Positions 1 to 15,989 of a DNA stretch of 64,000 nt are shown in pieces. How positions within the stretch are numbered: the stretch's first letter is position 1; each line of letters opens with the position of its first letter. Below the pieces are notes generated by a model. The model searched no databases and was not told where the DNA came from. It saw nothing but the letters and a program-made list of their open reading frames with translations. The position numbers and the translations under genes were made by a program. The DNA is from Gloeobacter kilaueensis JS1 (lineage in GTDB: Bacteria; Cyanobacteriota; Cyanobacteriia; Gloeobacterales; Gloeobacteraceae): the NCBI RefSeq assembly GCF_000484535.1, contig NC_022600.1, positions 1,798,001 to 1,862,000 of the forward strand, given 5' to 3'.

Positions 1-1
1 T

Positions 2-94
2 CAAAGCGAGACAAAGACGTATCCCCTCGATGACCTGATTGCCTGCAATCAGAACGTGGATCAGGCTTTCCAGGCTGCAGGAGGTCACCTGTGA
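2..94 (+). CDS. C-terminal end of a small protein, possibly ubiquitin-like (5' partial)
   Basis: An open frame enters from the left edge and stops with TGA at 92-94, overlapping the start of the next gene. The 30 visible residues end in AAGGHL. In loci that pair a JAB peptidase with an E1-like enzyme, the gene just upstream often encodes a small ubiquitin-like protein (Prok_Ub, PRTRC protein C) or an E2-like protein. A Gly-Gly near the C-terminus would fit a ubiquitin-like substrate processed by the JAB enzyme. This is inference from position and a two-residue motif; the fold cannot be judged from this fragment. Confidence 0.45.
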   Translation, partial: QSETKTYPLDDLIACNQNVDQAFQAAGGHL

Positions 95-699
95 TGATTC
101 GCTACCTTCCCCTGGCTGGCCCTTTGCCCCCAGCTTTGCCCTACGGCTGGGATTATCTCTTTGCTCAGGACGGTGTGGGACTGCGCGCCCGCCGCACTGG
201 CCTGGAAGTCTGTATGCCGCTGAGCTGTGGGGCTATTCGCCTGCAGGGTCTTCGACCCCTTCGGCCTTACTTCTCTCTTGAATATCCCCGCGTCCCGGCC
301 ACCTGCCTGCAGGCCATCGTCGCCCACTCCCTGGCCGCCACTGATCACGATGGTCGCCCTCTCGAAGCGTTGTTCTACCTGAAATACAGTCTGGGAGCCT
401 GGCAGTTGCGCGCCCCGGCGACGAGCGCCACCAGTACCAGCGTTATCGCTGTCGATCGCCATGACAGCGACGCCGATGTCGAGTTGCATAGCCATCACGC
501 CATGACGCCCCGCTTCTCGCTGCGCGACGACGAGGAGGAACAGGGTTTTCGCATCTACGCCGTCATCGGCCACTTGTTTACGACCCCGGCTCTCCACGTC
601 CGGGTTGGCTGTTTTGGCCACTTCTGGTCCATCCCGGCGGCCAGCGTCTTCGAGATGCCTGTCGATATCATCGACTACCTGGAGATTCAGAATGGTTGA
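91..699 (+). CDS. JAMM/JAB-domain metallopeptidase (PRTRC protein A-like)
   Basis: A 202-residue protein with a complete JAMM zinc signature near residues 131-146: E131, then H133-S-H135, seven residues, S143, two residues and D146. JAB/MPN peptidases of this kind cleave ubiquitin-like proteins after Gly-Gly or remove them from targets. The N-terminal 110 residues have no motif I can name. The start is GTG at 91 (an ATG follows directly), overlapping the upstream stop by 4 nt, and the E1-like gene starts inside its 3' end, so the three genes are probably translationally coupled. The JAB plus E1 pairing is known from prokaryotic ubiquitin-like loci and PRTRC plasmid loci. The peptidase call is firm from the motif; the substrate is unknown. 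Confidence 0.8.
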   Translation: MMIRYLPLAGPLPPALPYGWDYLFAQDGVGLRARRTGLEVCMPLSCGAIRLQGLRPLRPYFSLEYPRVPATCLQAIVAHSLAATDHDGRPLEALFYLKYSLGAWQLRAPATSATSTSVIAVDRHDSDADVELHSHHAMTPRFSLRDDEEEQGFRIYAVIGHLFTTPALHVRVGCFGHFWSIPAASVFEMPVDIIDYLEIQNG

Positions 700-1579
700 T
701 CTCTCCTATGCCAGAGCCGTGCCTCTCCTCACCCTCAAGGCCCGCCAGACAACCATTGTCCAGGTAGGGGCGGGCGGCACCGGTGGCTGGCTGTATCCGC
801 ATCTGGTCCGCCTGTTGCGTGTCCTGCTCGATCGCGGTGAGAGTGTGCGGCTGTTGCTGTGCGATCCCGACATCGTCGAGGAGAGCAATCTGATCCGGCA
901 GAATTTCTGTGCTGCCGAACTCGGTATGAACAAGGCCGAGGCTCTTGCTTTTCGCTACCAGGCCGCCTGGGGTCTGGAATTGCCCGCGCTGAACGTTCCT
1001 TTTTCCCGGAAGATCCTGGGTGACAACTTCCAGTACGCCCACGACCACTTCTTTGTGATCGTCGGCTGTGTGGACAACGCCGCCGCTCGCCTGACGATCC
1101 ACCAGTTGCTACTCAATATCGCGACAAGGAGCAACGTATCGAATATTCTCTGGATAGATGCGGGCAACCACGTAGACACGGGCCAGGTGCTCGTGGGCAA
1201 CATCGCCGAACCGGACCTGCTCGCCCATAGCTTCGATACACCTGGCCATTCCCACTGCGCTCTGCTGCCCTCCCCGGCCCTGCAGCATCCGGAACTACTC
1301 GTCCCCCAGCTGGAGGAGAATCCTGACGCTGATCTCAGCTGCGAGGAGTTGCTCCGCCTGAAAACCCAGAGCCTCACTATCAATCTGGCAATGGCTTCTC
1401 TGGCAGCCGATTACCTGCTGCACCTGCTGGTCACCCGCAACCTCCGGCGCTTCGCCTCGTACCTCGATATCCCGAGTGGAGCCCGCCGCAACCGGTACAA
1501 CACCCCCGAGCACCTCGCTGCTGCTGTCGGCCTCTCGCCGGACAGCCTCTTTTCTGCTGCAGGTGCCGCTATCGAATAA
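692..1579 (+). CDS. E1/ThiF/MoeB-like ubiquitin-activating enzyme (PRTRC ThiF-like)
   Basis: A 295-residue protein with the E1 superfamily adenylation fold. The nucleotide loop is VGAGGTGG at residues 25-32, followed by DPDIVEESNLIRQNF (58-72), which holds the acidic, Asn and Arg-Gln residues that bind ATP and Mg, and by CVDNAAAR (126-133). C217 in LSCEEL is a candidate for the thioester cysteine. Such enzymes adenylate the C-terminus of a ubiquitin-like protein. I chose ATG at 692, which overlaps the end of the JAB gene by 8 nt; a longer reading from 605 would overlap JAB heavily. The short length fits the PRTRC ThiF-like family rather than ThiF of thiamine synthesis, and no thiamine or molybdopterin genes are nearby. 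Confidence 0.82.
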   Translation: MVDLSYARAVPLLTLKARQTTIVQVGAGGTGGWLYPHLVRLLRVLLDRGESVRLLLCDPDIVEESNLIRQNFCAAELGMNKAEALAFRYQAAWGLELPALNVPFSRKILGDNFQYAHDHFFVIVGCVDNAAARLTIHQLLLNIATRSNVSNILWIDAGNHVDTGQVLVGNIAEPDLLAHSFDTPGHSHCALLPSPALQHPELLVPQLEENPDADLSCEELLRLKTQSLTINLAMASLAADYLLHLLVTRNLRRFASYLDIPSGARRNRYNTPEHLAAAVGLSPDSLFSAAGAAIE

Positions 1580-1634: not shown

Positions 1635-1668
1635 GGCCCGGCCTTCATCGGTCGGGCCTTTTGCTTTG
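1635..1668 (+). terminator. Hairpin with T-rich tail between the E1-like and methyltransferase-like genes
   Basis: GGCCCGGCC at 1635-1643 pairs with GGTCGGGCC at 1650-1658 across a 6-nt loop (9 bp, one G-U), and TTTTGCTTT follows. This has the form of an intrinsic terminator or attenuator, placed about 55 nt after the E1-like stop. It would separate the JAB-E1 unit from the downstream genes or reduce their transcription. Confidence 0.65.
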
Positions 1669-4169: not shown

Positions 4170-5255
4170 ATGGAGCTTATGGAAGCCCTCGGAATCACCC
4201 GTGCATCCCGCACACGCAATCTCGAAATTGGCCGTACCCACTTCTATGGCGGCAGCGGCCCGAGTCGGATCCTGGCTGCCATGGGCGTCGCGTTGCGCTC
4301 GATCGGATTGGGTCTGTGCGGCAGCCACTCCCGCGTCCTGCTGGTTCGGCCCGAAGCGGCAACTGGCGAAGGAGCCTGTGCCCTGCATGCCATCCACACC
4401 GCGTACCCCCATCTGGTAGACCTCTATCAGGGACCGCATCCTGATTGGGTCGGGGCGGGTCTCATCGCCAGCAACCTCTATCAGCTGATCTTGCTCGATG
4501 GTGTCGAAGTGGACGACGCCCTGGCCGCTGCGATCGTCGGAGCACCCCACCCGGTAGAGGTGATCCTCACAGGCGAGCAGTTACCGCCTGCCCTGGCAGG
4601 TTCGATCGACCTGCACTCCGAGCACCAGTGTCACTGCCAGACCGGCATTGCCAACACTGCCCTCATCCACGGCGACGGCAAGGGCAAGAGCACCTCCGCC
4701 CTCGGCCTGCTGCTGACCGCCGTGAGCCGCATCTTGAGCGGTGAAGATACCCGGCCTGTCTCGCTGATTCAGCTACTGAAAGGAGGAGCGGGCTACAGCC
4801 GGGTCGGCCCCTATACAGAAGACCCCGCCATCGCCGCTTTGCAGAGGATGACGGGCCTCGTCGATCACCACCACTTCGGTGATGACCGGGTGATCTTCAA
4901 GCGTGTCCCCCCCGATCACCCCAATGTCCGGCGACCCGCCGACTACACAGAAGCCCAGGCCGGTTGGTCCCTGGCCCAGAAGCATCTGCTGAGTGGTCGT
5001 TATCAGGCGGTTCTGGTCGATGAACTCAACGTTGCCCTCGACCTTGAATTGCTGGGGGACGAAGGCGAAGGTCAACGCCTGGTGCGATCAGCCATGCTGC
5101 TCAAGCAACCCGATGTCGCCTTCATCGCCACTGGCCGCTGCTGGCTGGAGAACCCTCATTCCGAGCAACTGCTCGGTTCCTACCAGCAGCACATCGAGAT
5201 TCGCAACTCCCACCACTATGGCTGCGCATCGTTGCGGGCCGGTATCGACTGGTAA
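4170..5255 (+). CDS. Tandem BtuR/CobO-like (cobalamin adenosyltransferase family) P-loop protein
   Basis: A 361-residue protein whose C-terminal half (about 163-361) has the layout of cob(I)yrinic acid a,c-diamide adenosyltransferase: P-loop GDGKGKST at 168-175, IQLLKGG near 200, a Trp-Ser-Leu-Ala helix, YQAVLVDELNVALD near 280, a TGR strand and the terminal GIDW also seen in BtuR. The N-terminal half looks like a degraded repeat: YGGSGPSRILAAMG (26-39) replaces the P-loop and YQLILLDGVEVDD (104-116) replaces the Walker B strand. No corrinoid genes are nearby. Its neighbours are helicase and primase, so it may be an ATPase recruited by the element rather than a vitamin enzyme. Family membership is well supported; function is unknown. 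Confidence 0.72.
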   Translation: MELMEALGITRASRTRNLEIGRTHFYGGSGPSRILAAMGVALRSIGLGLCGSHSRVLLVRPEAATGEGACALHAIHTAYPHLVDLYQGPHPDWVGAGLIASNLYQLILLDGVEVDDALAAAIVGAPHPVEVILTGEQLPPALAGSIDLHSEHQCHCQTGIANTALIHGDGKGKSTSALGLLLTAVSRILSGEDTRPVSLIQLLKGGAGYSRVGPYTEDPAIAALQRMTGLVDHHHFGDDRVIFKRVPPDHPNVRRPADYTEAQAGWSLAQKHLLSGRYQAVLVDELNVALDLELLGDEGEGQRLVRSAMLLKQPDVAFIATGRCWLENPHSEQLLGSYQQHIEIRNSHHYGCASLRAGIDW

Positions 5256-8042: not shown

Positions 8043-11000
8043 CTACATTTGGGTGTTCCTAAGGATTATAACTCTTAAAATAGCAAACTCATCACCATCA
8101 ACTTCTTTAATGGGAACCCCAGGTGTTATATTGCCATACCATCTTACCTGCACACCTGGAACCATACGTACCCCTGTGTTCTCAGGAGAGATTGGAGTTG
8201 TAAACTCTACACCTCGTTCTCCAGGTGGAAGAGCACCAAAGTAAGCTTGCACAGTTGGTACAAATCCCCCCCGTGGAACGCGCCCCCAGATTTCCTGACT
8301 TGCTACTTGCTTCGCTGCAGTCTCCTTTGATTGAAACTCAGCTTCGAACCTATGATACAACGGGAGAACTAAGTCATCTGCATAGCTTCGAGTAATCGTT
8401 ACTTCATTTGGACCTGTCCTTTCTATATTGCGCGGTAATTGCTGACTGGGACTGCCTCCTCCAGCTATCAAATTACCTCCGCCATTGGTAATAAAAGGTG
8501 GCGGCGGCTTTGGCCCTTCCGTCTCGGGATCAGTACTTACACCACCGAAAAGTTTAGGAATAGGTGAAGGCGCAGGGACAGGTGAAGAGTCAGGAGTATT
8601 ACCATCATCAGGGTTCCCTTCCTCATAAGCTCCGATTGGATCAGTTCCAACAGTAGGATTATTGAAGTTAAGAACGTAGAGGTTGGTATTACCACTAGAG
8701 AAACCAATTGGATCTTCGCTGATGAAGCGATGGAGGTCCGGGTTGTAGTAACGGCCTCGAAAGTAATAGAGCTGAACAACATTTTGAACAGTGTTCTTAC
8801 TAAGTTCACGTCCCATGAAGTACAAGCGATTGTCCGTCGTATTTTTGTCAGCTTGAGAAGAACCAATTGCCAAACCAAATCCGGTATATTCTATCCCAAA
8901 CTTTGCCTGCAAAGTCTTTGCGTCAACAACAACTAGAACTGAGTTGTTGAGCGGATCGTGGATTAAGAACTCATCGGTACTATCTGTGCGACTGCCCCAC
9001 ACATCATCGAGACTAGGACCAACCAAGTAGCGTTTGGTGACACCATTGGTAATTTCCTCGATGACCTGACTTCCAGCGTAAACAAACTTAGTAGTTACGC
9101 CATCGACCGTCTCTTGAATGCGACGACCAAGAGCATCATAGACAAAGCTTTCACTCCCGTTATTGACAGTATTTTCATATTTTATCAACTGGTTACGCGC
9201 ATTCCAGGTATAGGTCTCATTGACCGCTGTGCAGCTAGAACTGCACTTTTGAGTTGTAATATTACCATTGTTATCGTTAGTGACTGCACGATTAGCATAA
9301 GTGTCCAAACGATTCGTGCCAAGCTGATAAGTGACGCTACCCTGATTCTCAGATGTAATGTTGCCATCGCTATCCCAGGTCTGGTTATATGCTTGACTGC
9401 CAGTAGAGGTGTTTACCAGTGTTGATATTACCTGGCCATAATGGTCGTAAGTGTAGCTAAGACTATTGGCCGAGAGTTTCTGCCCAGTCAGGGTCCGCTG
9501 TGTCAGTTCTCCTTTATGGGAATAGTTATAGCCGTAAACCACCTCGCGAATCAGCGCAGAAGGCGACAGATTGTTGGTGAAACGGATCTCACTCAAATCT
9601 CCCTGGGGATTGTAATAGTAGTTTCCATACAGGATGCCACTGCCATCGTGATAGTTAAGAACAGTCTGCTGATTGGCATCGTTGTAGCCAATGGCAACAT
9701 TCATATCCGGCGCGCCACTTTGACCTTTGAGAAATGCCTGATGCAGACTGTTATCCGGCCAGTAGTCGTAGGTCAGTAACTGCGTACTGCCTCTTGAGAC
9801 CGCCGTCAGATTGCCCGCCGAATCATAGCTATAGCTAAGCGTGTCAGGAGCAGAAGAACCAGCTCCTGTAGTGACCGTCAGTGGGCCAGGAATATTACCA
9901 TTATCATTATTGTAGGTAAAGCTGACGTCTTTGCTATGAGACGAGTCACTGCTATCCGTAACTGAAGTTACCCGATCAAGAGTGTCGTAGTTGTAGGTAA
10001 CAATAGTGCCGTCGTTGTAAGTGAGCGTATGCAACCGCTGTTTGGAATCGTAGCCGTAGCGCGTTGTCTGGTTCTTTGGGTCAACCGTGTGGTCAAGCTG
10101 GCCCAAAGAGTTGTAGTAGTAGTACTCGGTGTACGAACCCTGCTGCCGGGAAGTTCTTCGACCCATTGCATCGTACTGATACTGGGTCGTTACACCGTTC
10201 GGTGCGGTTACTTTGGTTATATTGTCGTCGCCGTCATACTCGAACTGAGTCGTCTGATTTCCCGGCTGACGAGTAATTTGTTTGACCCGCCCACCGTGGT
10301 CATAAGTGTAATTTGTCGAATCGCCAGACACATTAGTGAGGTAGACGGAGGTGATCCGAGAAAGCTCGTCATAGACAAAGTGGCGAGTCAGGCCATCTGG
10401 ACCAAGCACATCTGTCAGGTCATGAGTTGTGGAGTTGTAGGTGTACTTAGTCTCCCTTCCTGCACCATCGGTGAAGGTTAGCACCTGACCAAAGTCGTTG
10501 TACGGGTTGTAGTTCAAAGACGCTGGTAACGGTGTGGCTACTTGAATCAACGCACCCGGTGCAGTCGTCGCTGTCGCTGAGTTATAGGTGAAGTAAGTCG
10601 TGTGCGAGTTGGCGTCTTCAAGACTGTACAACTGACCAAAAGGACCGCTGAAGTTGAAACTCGTGAACGAAAAGCCATTCGGTTCGGCAATCGAACTCAA
10701 GTGATAAAACGCACCAGCCGTCTGGTAATTGTAATAGGTCGTATAGTCCGTACTGTTTATGTTGTACTTAACTGAGTTGACGAGACCAGAAGTGTCGTCA
10801 TACGTGTAGTAAGTACTGCTATTGTCAGCAGAGTTGTTGATTTGGTTGATGTAGTTGTTGGTGGCGTTGTAGTAGTAGGTCAGTACTGGACCAGCCCCAG
10901 AGCTGGCCCCAAAAGTCTGCACTGTCGCCTTCGAGTACTGGGTGTTGATGCCGTAGTTGACAAGAATATCGTCAGAACTATCGCTGCCATTGGTACCAGG

Positions 11001-11948
11001 CATCCGCTGTTGGCTCACCCGAATCGGTCCGTGCGACGGACCGCTAGTGTAGGTGTTGGTTAAGACCGTGTTAAAGCGTGCATCTTTGATCGAATTCATC
11101 CAATCTGACTCGATGCCGTTGGTGCCAACGTAGTAGCCGTAGTTGGTCGTGTTGCCATTGAGGTCGTGGTAGCCTACCAGATTGCCCGTGTAGTCATAGT
11201 CGTAGCTGACGGTGTAGCCGTGAGCGAGCACATTCGCGTTGTGGGTGTCGTAGAGCTGGGCCGTACTGATACGGTTGTTGGAATAGGTCAGCTGGATGCC
11301 GCGCCCGAGAGGATTCTCGATTTTGGTAAGGTTATCACCGCTCCAGGTGAGGGTTGTAACCTTGCCATAGCGGTCTTTGATGGAACTGAGGTGCTTCTGA
11401 CCCTGGGTAGTCGCGGCTGTGGCAAAGTTGAGCTTGGTGCCGTCTTCGAGGGTGAGAGTATCGGTGGAGCCACTGATAGTGAAAGTGCCTCGGAGAGCCG
11501 CCTTGGAGTCGTCGTTGGTGCAGGTGCCGTTGTTGCAATGGAAATCGGTCTGCTCGCCGGTCAAGGTCAGCACCGACAGACCCCCTGGCAAGGTGTAGTC
11601 GTAAACGATGTAGCTGTACAGACCAAGGGTGGTGCCCCAGCTAAAGGGTCCCTGGACGGTTGGGGTAAAGCCGTCGTTTTTGGCGTTTTGGTAGTGGCGG
11701 TAGATAACGACGGGGTCGATGCCGCCGGTGGTGAGGTCGATGTGGTCGTAGCTAAAGATGCCCAGCTGAGCGTTGACGGAACTGGCCGCCCAACAAAAAG
11801 AGGTGGGTTGAGCAACCAGCAGCAGAGAGAGCAAGGAAGCAACGAGCGCCTTTGGGGAGGGCCGCTTGGCACGCTTTATCGGTCTTACTGGAAGCAGGCG
11901 CAGGAGAAAGCTCAGAAAAACAACGACAAAGCGAAACAGCGGTTGCAT
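8043..11948 (-). CDS. RHS/YD-repeat polymorphic toxin with an unrecognised C-terminal tip
   Basis: A 1301-residue protein. It starts with a basic region and a hydrophobic segment ending near AAS (about residue 55), consistent with export. An N-terminal segment around FSYDHIDLTTGG is followed by many YD repeats (for example YSYDSAGNLTAV and YDALGRRIQE) across roughly residues 190-1010. The RHS core ends with YYFRGRYYNPDLHRFISEDPIG and then NPTVGTDPIG near residue 1106. The final 195 residues start with a Pro/Gly-rich linker and end in a compact domain containing GERGVEFTTPISPE and WYGNITPGVP. In this family the tip is the toxin and is swapped between strains. I cannot assign its activity. Base composition is lower in GC than in the flanks, consistent with transfer. 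The next gene is the presumed immunity protein. Confidence 0.88.
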   Translation of the reverse strand: MQPLFRFVVVFLSFLLRLLPVRPIKRAKRPSPKALVASLLSLLLVAQPTSFCWAASSVNAQLGIFSYDHIDLTTGGIDPVVIYRHYQNAKNDGFTPTVQGPFSWGTTLGLYSYIVYDYTLPGGLSVLTLTGEQTDFHCNNGTCTNDDSKAALRGTFTISGSTDTLTLEDGTKLNFATAATTQGQKHLSSIKDRYGKVTTLTWSGDNLTKIENPLGRGIQLTYSNNRISTAQLYDTHNANVLAHGYTVSYDYDYTGNLVGYHDLNGNTTNYGYYVGTNGIESDWMNSIKDARFNTVLTNTYTSGPSHGPIRVSQQRMPGTNGSDSSDDILVNYGINTQYSKATVQTFGASSGAGPVLTYYYNATNNYINQINNSADNSSTYYTYDDTSGLVNSVKYNINSTDYTTYYNYQTAGAFYHLSSIAEPNGFSFTSFNFSGPFGQLYSLEDANSHTTYFTYNSATATTAPGALIQVATPLPASLNYNPYNDFGQVLTFTDGAGRETKYTYNSTTHDLTDVLGPDGLTRHFVYDELSRITSVYLTNVSGDSTNYTYDHGGRVKQITRQPGNQTTQFEYDGDDNITKVTAPNGVTTQYQYDAMGRRTSRQQGSYTEYYYYNSLGQLDHTVDPKNQTTRYGYDSKQRLHTLTYNDGTIVTYNYDTLDRVTSVTDSSDSSHSKDVSFTYNNDNGNIPGPLTVTTGAGSSAPDTLSYSYDSAGNLTAVSRGSTQLLTYDYWPDNSLHQAFLKGQSGAPDMNVAIGYNDANQQTVLNYHDGSGILYGNYYYNPQGDLSEIRFTNNLSPSALIREVVYGYNYSHKGELTQRTLTGQKLSANSLSYTYDHYGQVISTLVNTSTGSQAYNQTWDSDGNITSENQGSVTYQLGTNRLDTYANRAVTNDNNGNITTQKCSSSCTAVNETYTWNARNQLIKYENTVNNGSESFVYDALGRRIQETVDGVTTKFVYAGSQVIEEITNGVTKRYLVGPSLDDVWGSRTDSTDEFLIHDPLNNSVLVVVDAKTLQAKFGIEYTGFGLAIGSSQADKNTTDNRLYFMGRELSKNTVQNVVQLYYFRGRYYNPDLHRFISEDPIGFSSGNTNLYVLNFNNPTVGTDPIGAYEEGNPDDGNTPDSSPVPAPSPIPKLFGGVSTDPETEGPKPPPPFITNGGGNLIAGGGSPSQQLPRNIERTGPNEVTITRSYADDLVLPLYHRFEAEFQSKETAAKQVASQEIWGRVPRGGFVPTVQAYFGALPPGERGVEFTTPISPENTGVRMVPGVQVRWYGNITPGVPIKEVDGDEFAILRVIILRNTQM

Positions 11949-13334: not shown

Positions 13335-15989
13335 ATGATACAGGCAGATAAATCTACTCGCTACGCAGATATCTTTCCTTATAAGTGGCTCGGGGGACCG
13401 TTTCTGGGAACGGCTTGCGGTCGCATCCGCTTCGTCTTCAAGGTGATCGGAGGCTGCAATCCCGAAGCGTTGATGCCGGATCAGCTGACCGTGTTTGCCG
13501 ACATGATCGCAGGCTTCTGCAACCGGACGCTGCCCGTCTGGGATCATCTGCAGACGTTTGTGATGGTAAGCCCCGATGTCCGGCCCGTCCTCGACGAGCA
13601 CATGGCTCAAGTCGTGACCCAATCAGATTTTGTCCGGGAACTGGAAAAGGAGCGCTGCCGGGGGTTTATCCATCGTGCTCAAAACGGCCAATGCGCTGCG
13701 CTGGAAACCTACATCTGCGCCGGTTTCGATCCCTACATCGAGCGCCGTCAGGGACTGCTGGGCTACTTGCGGCCAGACCTGCCTGGCCTGCTCCACTGGC
13801 AGGAGGTCCATCCTCCCGAGGGCGATAGCCTCGCTCCGCAAGTGATCCTCTCCGGTGCACTCGAACGGCTCGCCCAGATCGAGAGCTTCCTCACCACTGC
13901 CGGCCTGGAGGTGCAGATGATGGACGGGCCACAGCTACGCCACCTGCTGCAGCAGGCCCAGTACCCTGCCTATTCTCTTACCGGGCACACCAGTGATGCT
14001 CTGCCCATCGGTCGCTACACTTTCCTCGATGACTGTGTCATCCAGACGATTGGTAACCGGCATCTGGGACAGTCGGAGCAGCGCACCTACTACACCTGCC
14101 TGGTGCCCAGAACCTTTGCTCAGGTGACCTGTGCGGGCATGCTCGTCCCCTACATCTCGGAGGGCAACTTCACCCGACTGTCTATCTCCACGGCCCGGCC
14201 CTCCGATACCGCCAACCAGATGCACATCAGCATCAAGAAGAACCTGGGGGAGCTGGCCAATGCCTTCCAGGCGATGATCGGTCGGGGCCAGTCGATGGCT
14301 TCTTCAGTCCAGCAGGGCGATCTCCAGTACACCGAGCAACGCATCTTTCAGGACAAGACCAATATCGTCCAGTGCGGCATCATCGTCGTCGTCGCTGCCC
14401 CAGATCGCGAGAACCTCCAGTACGCCGTCAAACAGACCTGCGATCGCTGGCGGTCGCTGTTCCAGATGGAACTGGAAGTGGGCCGCAAGTGGCAGGAGGA
14501 TCTGTGGTTCGCGAGTCTACCGGCGGCACCGGTGCCGCCGCCTGAGAGCGTCCGTAACCGCTGCTTTCCAGAAAATGCTGCCGATTTCATGCTGCCGGTG
14601 CTCCCCTGGCAGGGCTCACCCAAAAAAAATTTCCTCATCGCCAACCGCTGGCGGCAGGTGATTGGCTACGACCTGTTCAACTTCACCAGTTGCCACGGCA
14701 TTCTGGGCGGGCGAACGGGCGAAGGCAAGTCCTTCCAGGCACTGGACCTGTACCTGCAGGCAGCAGCGGTCGGCTGCCGGGGTGTGATCCTCGACAAGAT
14801 GGGCAGCTACTACTTTCTGTTCAAGCATGTTCTGGGCGGCATGGCCCGCACGATGCAGCCGGGCACCTTCACGATCAATCCCTTCGAGTTCTACCTGGGC
14901 GAGGGCCAGGATCTGCGCACCGCCACCGTGCCGCCCAGCCGGATCGAGGCGCTCAAAGCCTGCTTTGCCACAGTGCTCGGCCTGCAACGCGACACCAACG
15001 GCAACATCCGCGCCCTGCTCACCAAAGCGATCAGCCTTACCTATCAGCGCATTCTGCCCACCGGTCGCTATCCGATCATCTCGGATCTGATCGACACCCT
15101 GCGCCTGTTTCTCGAAGGTCAGGGTTTTCAAGAATGCGAAATCGAGTTCACCAGTCAGAGCTTCAAGGAGCTGGTCTCCAGCACCCTGGTCAGCCTCTTC
15201 GAGTTCAACACCGAGAACTCGATGCTCAAGCTCTGCTTCAACGGCCAGTCCAGCGAACGCTTCTTCGAGCATGATCACATCTACTTCGACCTGGCTCCCC
15301 TGGGCAAGGGCACGATGACCCAGCGTCTGGTGGCCCAACTGCTTGCCACCAGCATCGACGAGTGGGTGCAGACCGTCCCGAAGCGCACCTTGATCATCTT
15401 CGAGGAGATCTGGTCGGATGTCACCGACAACCCGGAGATGGTCAACCTGATGAAGAACTCCGTCCGCGCCTACCGCCGCTATGGCGTGCGGGTCTTCTTC
15501 GTCACCCAGTCGTTCGGGGACATCCTCGATAGCGAATACGCCCGTGACCTGTTCGAGCAGACGCGGGTGCGGATCGCCCTCAAGCAGGACAACTTTCACA
15601 AATCCGCCCAGGATCTCAAGGCCAACCCGATCGCCCTCGCGACGATCAATACCCTCGAAACTGTCAAGGGCGACTTCTCGGAGCTGTTCTTCTTCTGGGA
15701 CAACGACCGCAGCGCTGTGGTCAACTTCTCGACGCCGATGCGCTACTGGGTGGCAACTACCGACGAGCTGGACACCCCCTGGCGCAACTATCTGGTGAAC
15801 GAGCTGAAAATGGATGCCCGCGAAGCGATCGTCCGTCTGGCACGAACTTTCCCCAACGGCGTCCATGATGCCACCCTGCTGGACAAGTTCAAAGCAGGCG
15901 AGTTCGACCTCGCCCCTTACGGCGAACCAGACCCCACTCCTCCCGCCCCCGAAACTCCACCACCCGGCGAACTCCAGCATGTCTACTGA
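13335..15989 (+). CDS. VirB4/TraC-type conjugation ATPase
   Basis: An 884-residue protein. Walker A GRTGEGKS lies near residue 458, following FNFTSCHGILGG, and Walker B LIIFEEIW near 685, followed by a RAYRRYGVRVFFVTQSF motif typical of VirB4. The N-terminal 450 residues match the CagE/TrbE-like region in size. VirB4 ATPases energise pilus assembly and substrate transfer at the inner membrane. It begins 20 nt after the VirB3-like gene and its last 11 nt overlap the next gene. The C-terminus ends in a short Pro-rich tail. This is the strongest evidence that the region encodes a conjugation machine. Confidence 0.88.
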   Translation: MIQADKSTRYADIFPYKWLGGPFLGTACGRIRFVFKVIGGCNPEALMPDQLTVFADMIAGFCNRTLPVWDHLQTFVMVSPDVRPVLDEHMAQVVTQSDFVRELEKERCRGFIHRAQNGQCAALETYICAGFDPYIERRQGLLGYLRPDLPGLLHWQEVHPPEGDSLAPQVILSGALERLAQIESFLTTAGLEVQMMDGPQLRHLLQQAQYPAYSLTGHTSDALPIGRYTFLDDCVIQTIGNRHLGQSEQRTYYTCLVPRTFAQVTCAGMLVPYISEGNFTRLSISTARPSDTANQMHISIKKNLGELANAFQAMIGRGQSMASSVQQGDLQYTEQRIFQDKTNIVQCGIIVVVAAPDRENLQYAVKQTCDRWRSLFQMELEVGRKWQEDLWFASLPAAPVPPPESVRNRCFPENAADFMLPVLPWQGSPKKNFLIANRWRQVIGYDLFNFTSCHGILGGRTGEGKSFQALDLYLQAAAVGCRGVILDKMGSYYFLFKHVLGGMARTMQPGTFTINPFEFYLGEGQDLRTATVPPSRIEALKACFATVLGLQRDTNGNIRALLTKAISLTYQRILPTGRYPIISDLIDTLRLFLEGQGFQECEIEFTSQSFKELVSSTLVSLFEFNTENSMLKLCFNGQSSERFFEHDHIYFDLAPLGKGTMTQRLVAQLLATSIDEWVQTVPKRTLIIFEEIWSDVTDNPEMVNLMKNSVRAYRRYGVRVFFVTQSFGDILDSEYARDLFEQTRVRIALKQDNFHKSAQDLKANPIALATINTLETVKGDFSELFFFWDNDRSAVVNFSTPMRYWVATTDELDTPWRNYLVNELKMDAREAIVRLARTFPNGVHDATLLDKFKAGEFDLAPYGEPDPTPPAPETPPPGELQHVY

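Follow-up and report, generated by a model that had tools for sequence, protein, structure and literature searches.

A stretch of 64,000 nucleotides of Gloeobacter kilaueensis DNA (G000:C1:1798001-1862000 of a genome that is one contig of 4,724,791 bases; the whole stretch is called the window below) begins within a group of genes reminiscent of ubiquitin-like conjugation. The question is whether these genes belong to a complete pathway and, if so, where on the element that carries them such a pathway could act. The enzymatic core of the cassette is already known: as far as its account of operon type 6d goes, the paper of Iyer et al. (2006) predicted a ubiquitin-like protein (UbL), a JAB, an E1, an E2 and a helical protein, with members in Anabaena (PMC1779556). 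Cassettes of the PRTRC type occur on hundreds of plasmids, and in the literature that we found no function is established for them. The search of PMC returned no paper on PRTRC function, matches to "PRTRC" being in part unrelated pRtrc promoter text, and one plasmid map groups PRTRC-type cassettes with partition genes (PMC7466150).

Results

The left edge of the window (1..2) cuts the operon, the remaining genes of which lie leftward on the same contig (L003 in Table 1; L003 position equals window position plus 18000). The order of the genes is E, UbL-C2 fusion, zeta-like insertion, F, E2, JAB and E1, where E and F are named by their position in the cassette. Leaving the insertion aside, this gene order is common to canonical PRTRC plasmids and about 70 relatives; the canonical cassette of Aromatoleum plasmid 1 reads ParB, E, C, F, B, A, ThiF. 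The cassette is common on cyanobacterial plasmids, many of which have the same gene order with the genes annotated as hypothetical, and 360 PLSDB records match the Gloeobacter E1.

Could the Gloeobacter copy be a decayed, non-functional remnant, in which the zeta-like insertion parts UbL-C2 from F? The insertion amounts to about 1.1 kb, the element lies within a chromosome-sized contig, and a match to the E1 was absent from the three other genomes of the same genus that were searched. We consider decay very improbable all the same: all six operon frames are intact, the catalytic residues are retained, and the overlaps of a few bases between F and E2, E2 and JAB, and JAB and E1 are preserved.

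Table 1. Coordinates of the cassette genes, their motifs and the flanking features
Feature	Position	Strand	Remarks
dnaN (second copy)	L003:12461-13585		upstream of operon
Intrinsic terminator, strong	L003:13607-13632		between dnaN and E; upstream operon boundary
E	about L003:13715-14935		~400 residues, low-complexity, C-terminus NQLPIF
UbL fused to C2	L003:14932-15432		166 residues; GHKG at junction
Zeta-toxin-like P-loop gene	L003:15612-16187		Zeta_toxin Pfam E=5e-12; between UbL-C2 and F
F	L003:16575-17432		no family matched
Whole E2-like gene (PRTRC_B / Prok-E2_D)	G000:C1:1797429-1798094 = L003:17429-18094	+	motif PLPN-ISSRGLI-C-FG
E2-like gene, 3' end	window 2..94	+	last 30 codons and stop
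JAMM/JAB peptidase, PRTRC_A-like	window 91..699	+	Prok-JAB E=6.7e-4; PRTRC_A TIGR03735 E=6.6e-8
JAMM zinc motif HSH-x7-SxxD	window 487..528	+	within JAB frame
E1-like activating enzyme, PRTRC ThiF-like	window 692..1579	+	ThiF Pfam E=1.8e-11; PRTRC_ThiF TIGR03736 E=1.4e-34
E1 nucleotide-binding loop VGAGGTGG	window 764..787	+	
Candidate thioester Cys217 of E1	window 1340..1342	+	invariant in clade and canonical PRTRC ThiF
Intrinsic terminator	window 1635..1658	+	9-bp GC stem, T tail; downstream of E1, ends operon

Membership of dnaN in the cassette operon was ruled out by the strong terminator that stands between this gene and E, thus we place this dnaN, one of two in the Gloeobacter genome, in a separate transcription unit. 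The first-pass annotation had drawn attention to the linkage of the cassette to a helicase and a primase; both are near, but both lie past the strong terminator downstream of E1, and for this reason they are probably outside the cassette operon. Its broader claim, a PRTRC-related ubiquitin-like conjugation cassette on a mobile-element-like region, was borne out. The cassette probably sits on a plasmid-like element that is integrated and conjugative.

Several neighbouring genes deserve mention. A TraG/TraC-like conjugation ATPase (window 13335-15989) supports an integrated conjugative element. The gene at window 4170-5255, between the element helicase and primase, has a CobA/BtuR-like P-loop domain in its C-terminal part, and this is unusual company for a cobalamin enzyme. 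The element region also encodes, on its minus strand (window 8043-11948), a 1301-residue RHS-repeat protein, and a small ORF after the zeta-toxin-like gene is a possible antitoxin. Near the cassette there are also a DUF1257-like gene, recognized by eye, and an AAA ATPase (L003:7335-9656); a DUF1257/DUF2997/AAA module lies near the cassette in the Leptolyngbya plasmid pLBX (L011:15703-16804), and DUF1257-AAA is possibly a shared cyanobacterial plasmid module. As a segregase partner, the CDC48/FtsH-like AAA gene 4 kb upstream was unsupported, resembling instead the plasmid DUF1257-AAA module.

On sequence criteria, the JAB and E1 assignments are beyond chance. The three overlapping plus-strand frames were present where the first-pass annotation had placed them, and the peptidase and activating enzyme that it described stood up to comparison with relatives. 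The JAMM motif of the JAB is complete; its two His, its Ser and its Asp are conserved in the alignment, as is the catalytic Glu, and the protein is presumed to be the enzyme that processes the UbL and also removes it from conjugates. The nucleotide-binding loop and the candidate thioester Cys of the E1 were both located; aligned relatives retain the glycine loop, Asp58, Arg69/Gln70, Lys81, Asp128 and Cys217, the last of which is invariant across 13 aligned E1s and retained in the canonical Aromatoleum protein.

The frame at the left edge had been taken for the tail of a small protein, with the true ubiquitin-like protein expected there and no E2-like gene visible. Its product does terminate in AAGGHL, as claimed, but once the gene had been completed at its 5' end with sequence of the same genome, it proved to encode an E2-like enzyme. 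It matches Prok-E2_D (PF14460, E=2e-25, 89.9 bits, cut-off 25) and PRTRC_B (TIGR03737, E=1.7e-17), so the profile search for an upstream E2-like gene, suggested as a check, was positive; the match to Prok-E2_D at 1797570-1798040 is the only one in the Gloeobacter genome. As the whole gene matches this family, the E2 thought to be missing was the very gene mistaken for the ubiquitin-like protein, and the latter identity is ruled out. Taken literally, this refutes the first-pass annotation for the left gene, which was to have a ubiquitin fold or kinship with PRTRC protein C, but a UbL is present about 2.7 kb farther left. The relatives of the E2-like protein keep an Asn and a Cys, aligned as PLPN-x(5-9)-C-x-G, which recalls the HPN-Cys arrangement of E2 enzymes. 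A conserved His after the E2 Cys, as described by Iyer et al., was not found in the cyanobacterial alignment, in which a PN motif shortly before the Cys is kept instead.

The dedicated E2-like enzyme with its conserved Cys speaks against ThiS/MoaD-like sulfur transfer in place of protein conjugation, and so does a neighbourhood without rhodanese or sulfur-metabolism genes. The E1 domain is ThiF-like, and sulfur-transfer systems do pair E1-like proteins with JABs according to the relevant portion of Iyer et al. (2006; PMC1779556), yet we find this reading hardly credible.

Scanned as a single sequence, the 166-residue UbL-C2 protein of Gloeobacter matched no profile. A profile built from its relatives aligned with PRTRC_C (hhalign probability 93%, P 4.5e-7) and with the Bacillota UbLs (P 7.8e-12), and three of 16 UbL relatives matched TIGR03738 (best E 8.8e-4). 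In the AlphaFold model of one UbL relative, a strand-strand-helix-strand-strand arrangement is joined to a helical domain through a GTKG linker that is modelled with low confidence. VIA-align overlaid residues 1-62 of this model on residues 1-76 of ubiquitin, thus GTKG maps onto the ubiquitin tail; the score (1ubq, Z 4.5, rmsd 3.1 Å, 59 residues aligned) is middling and was weighed only alongside the sequence evidence. By sequence and predicted structure, the protein is a beta-grasp UbL related to PRTRC protein C. Searches of PDB sequences yielded no useful match for UbL, E or F. The model of F is helical and confident (pLDDT 90), and F gets no fold assignment because the best Foldseek E was 2.2 and the best VIA-align Z was 2.3.

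Canonical UbLs mostly terminate exactly at GTKG or near variants of it. The UbL of Planktothrix, Microcoleus and Pseudanabaena likewise ends no more than a few residues from GxKG, and a separate gene for the helical C2 comes next. A single gene encodes both in Gloeobacter, Nostoc and others, and there GxKG marks the boundary between UbL and C2. Looking for a terminal glycine in the Gloeobacter UbL, we found GxKG present but internal, with C2 following. A Cytobacillus plasmid encodes two tandem UbLs, each unit closing with GTKG, and a single gene of Bacillus velezensis pAD3 (L114:3641-4378) encodes four tandem UbL units, each closing with AGTKG, which would resemble a bacterial polyubiquitin-like precursor. 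Such tandem units imply maturation by the JAB. As the simplest reading, by analogy with ubiquitin fusions and polyubiquitin, we infer that the JAB may cut the UbL precursor after the GxKG glycine; tandem GTKG-ending UbLs would parallel polyubiquitin and make JAB-processing directly testable.

Protein E is highly variable, yet its tails read QLSLF, QISLF, QLTLF, QLNLF, QQSLF or QMALL, preceded by a linker that is not conserved, and a C-terminal QLxLF is an established clamp-binding consensus (PMC4549789). Among the 66 loci with room for E, the strict motif was found at the C-terminus of E in 52 and the relaxed one in 54, the additions being Gloeobacter (QLPIF) and Leptolyngbya (QRSLF); counted by UbL cluster (70%), the numbers were 18/32 and 20/32, respectively. 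The Gloeobacter tail NQLPIF deviates from the consensus, failing the strict pattern and matching the relaxed one. The UbL, C2, F, E2, JAB and E1 proteins gave 0 matches. In other ORFs the motif occurred 24 times among about 7,552, several of these being the plasmid DNA polymerase beside dnaN/dnaX, and the plasmids' own DNA polymerase has the tail KQLSLF, the same motif. Bacillota plasmids encode a UbL-JAB fusion with a clamp-type motif at its N-terminus (Alicyclobacillus NQSSLF, Thermobacillus QQMDLF, Alkalihalophilus KQFDLF, Paenibacillus GQSDLF); in the Rubrobacter (Actinomycetota) member the Gln of the motif is missing. A dnaN gene was on the same record in 12 of 13 cases with the motif vs. 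4 of 15 without it (Fisher P 6e-4, a test that ignores kinship, on a table of whole records compiled after the motif was noticed). In PLSDB only 189 of 72,556 plasmids have a DnaN match. Another link to the replisome is seen in Leptolyngbya boryana pLBX, where holA, the gene of the clamp-loader delta subunit (L011:8826-9776), starts 3 bases after E1. The sequence comparison suggests that the C-terminal peptide of E is a putative sliding-clamp docking site, a hypothesis with good support at this level.

The motif is not a trait of the whole family. With the E1 alignment 78 viral loci were retrieved, and two IMG/VR loci (L125 and L133) contain full UbL-C2/F/E2/JAB/E1 cassettes in which a ParB-like protein precedes the UbL; L125 also contains terminase and portal genes. 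The strict motif was present in 0/32 E-position proteins of the phage-derived IMG/VR loci, obtained with the same alignment, and absent from canonical proteobacterial PRTRC_E, therefore clamp docking as a family-wide property is ruled out. A 93-kb viral contig with dnaN encodes an E-like protein that ends in QTTLNLFG. Depending on the element, then, the E slot holds either a ParB-like protein that binds DNA or a protein with the clamp motif.

These observations can also be read to mean that the PRTRC-type conjugation cassette works in maintaining or partitioning the plasmid without being recruited to the clamp, the QLxLF of E having another use. ParB-like proteins in or beside the E slot of canonical PRTRC and phage versions would fit, as would the phage and proteobacterial versions without the clamp motif. 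We regard this as rather unlikely for the Gloeobacter cassette, which has no ParB, the only ParB_N gene of the genome being 84 kb distant. Moreover, the motif stands at the exact C-terminus past a non-conserved linker, as in the tail of the plasmid polymerase; Bacillota have it independently, and its presence goes with that of dnaN.

Discussion

It is useful to compare the Gloeobacter cassette with the known systems. It belongs to the cyanobacterial branch of the PRTRC cassettes, type 6d of Iyer et al. (2006), to judge from the type 6d entries of that paper. According to its Table 1 (PMC1779556), type 6d shares with Gloeobacter a UbL with a C-terminal glycine, a JAB with an N-terminal domain, an E1-like protein, a helical protein and an E2-like protein that has the Cys but not the classical His, and Anabaena and A. 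variabilis are already among the members. The clamp motif, the UbL-C2 fusion, the tandem GTKG UbLs and the dnaN linkage are not part of the type 6d account as it stands in these entries.

With the PRTRC system (TIGR03735-TIGR03738 and partners) the cassette shares the order E-C-F-B-A-ThiF and matches to the ThiF, B and A models, in addition to the relatedness of the UbL to protein C. Unlike canonical members, its E1 (119.5 bits against TIGR03736, curated 144.75) and its JAB (against TIGR03735) score under the cut-offs, and the place of ParB is filled by dnaN and E. The Gloeobacter E and F gave no NCBIfam match and an hhalign probability <1% to PRTRC_E and PRTRC_F, with which they share position only. 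In the E1 tree the Gloeobacter protein falls in a clade of 52 rows (support 95/97) from Cyanobacteria, Chloroflexota, Acidobacteriota and one Bacillota bin, canonical PRTRC ThiF forms a separate clade (100/99), and the Bacillota plasmid proteins lie between them on long branches. Given that E and F lack detectable homology to their PRTRC counterparts and that the cassette has no ParB, it is better classed as a divergent branch of the PRTRC-like / type 6d family than as strict PRTRC.

The set of E1, E2, JAB and UbL is the same as in Bil (BilABCD; PMC11354881), and the chemistry resembles the ubiquitin-like conjugation of CBASS Cap2/Cap3 as portrayed in the pertinent part of PMC10097602. Together with the zeta-toxin-like gene in the region, this could point to an anti-phage or anti-plasmid defence that tags proteins of the invader. 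Such a role appears improbable to us. The architecture and the UbL are different, and among the six operon genes we saw no Bil- or CBASS-specific UbL, cyclase or defence effector; the context is that of plasmid replication, most plasmids linking the cassette to dnaN, dnaX and polymerase and not to defence genes, and the cassette is also found on phages.

We think it fairly likely, on the strength of sequence comparisons, that the Gloeobacter element carries a complete ubiquitin-like conjugation pathway and that E docks on the replication clamp. In the mechanism that we propose, the JAB would cleave the UbL-C2 precursor after GHKG and expose the terminal glycine, then the E1 would adenylate the UbL and hold it on Cys217. 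From there the UbL would move to the Cys of the E2-like protein, which would attach it to lysines of the targets, and the JAB could also detach it again. Through its C-terminal QLxLF-type peptide, E would dock on the sliding clamp, for which the DnaN of the element is the likeliest candidate, and we propose that conjugation would thereby be brought to the replication fork of the element.

In the literature searched, limited in extent, there appears to be no description of the clamp motif, of UbL precursors in fused or tandem form, or of the phage cassettes. By analogy only, eukaryotic polyubiquitin and ubiquitin-fusion precursors resemble the tandem UbLs and UbL-C2, and the ubiquitination and SUMOylation of PCNA resemble the modification proposed here at the replication sliding clamp; unlike in the case of PCNA, the modification of DnaN is a conjecture. 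We put forward tentatively, as a possibility, that the plasmid UbL systems act at the clamp, where the UbL, released by the JAMM protease from a fusion or polyubiquitin-like precursor, would be attached to DnaN itself or to replication proteins bound to the clamp. If true, this would be a bacterial equivalent of PCNA ubiquitination, with control over the replication of the element. A clamp-type peptide in two different proteins and positions is a concrete and readily testable hint that conjugation may take place at the replication fork, and it suggests a simple bacterial parallel to the tagging of replication clamps in eukaryotes.
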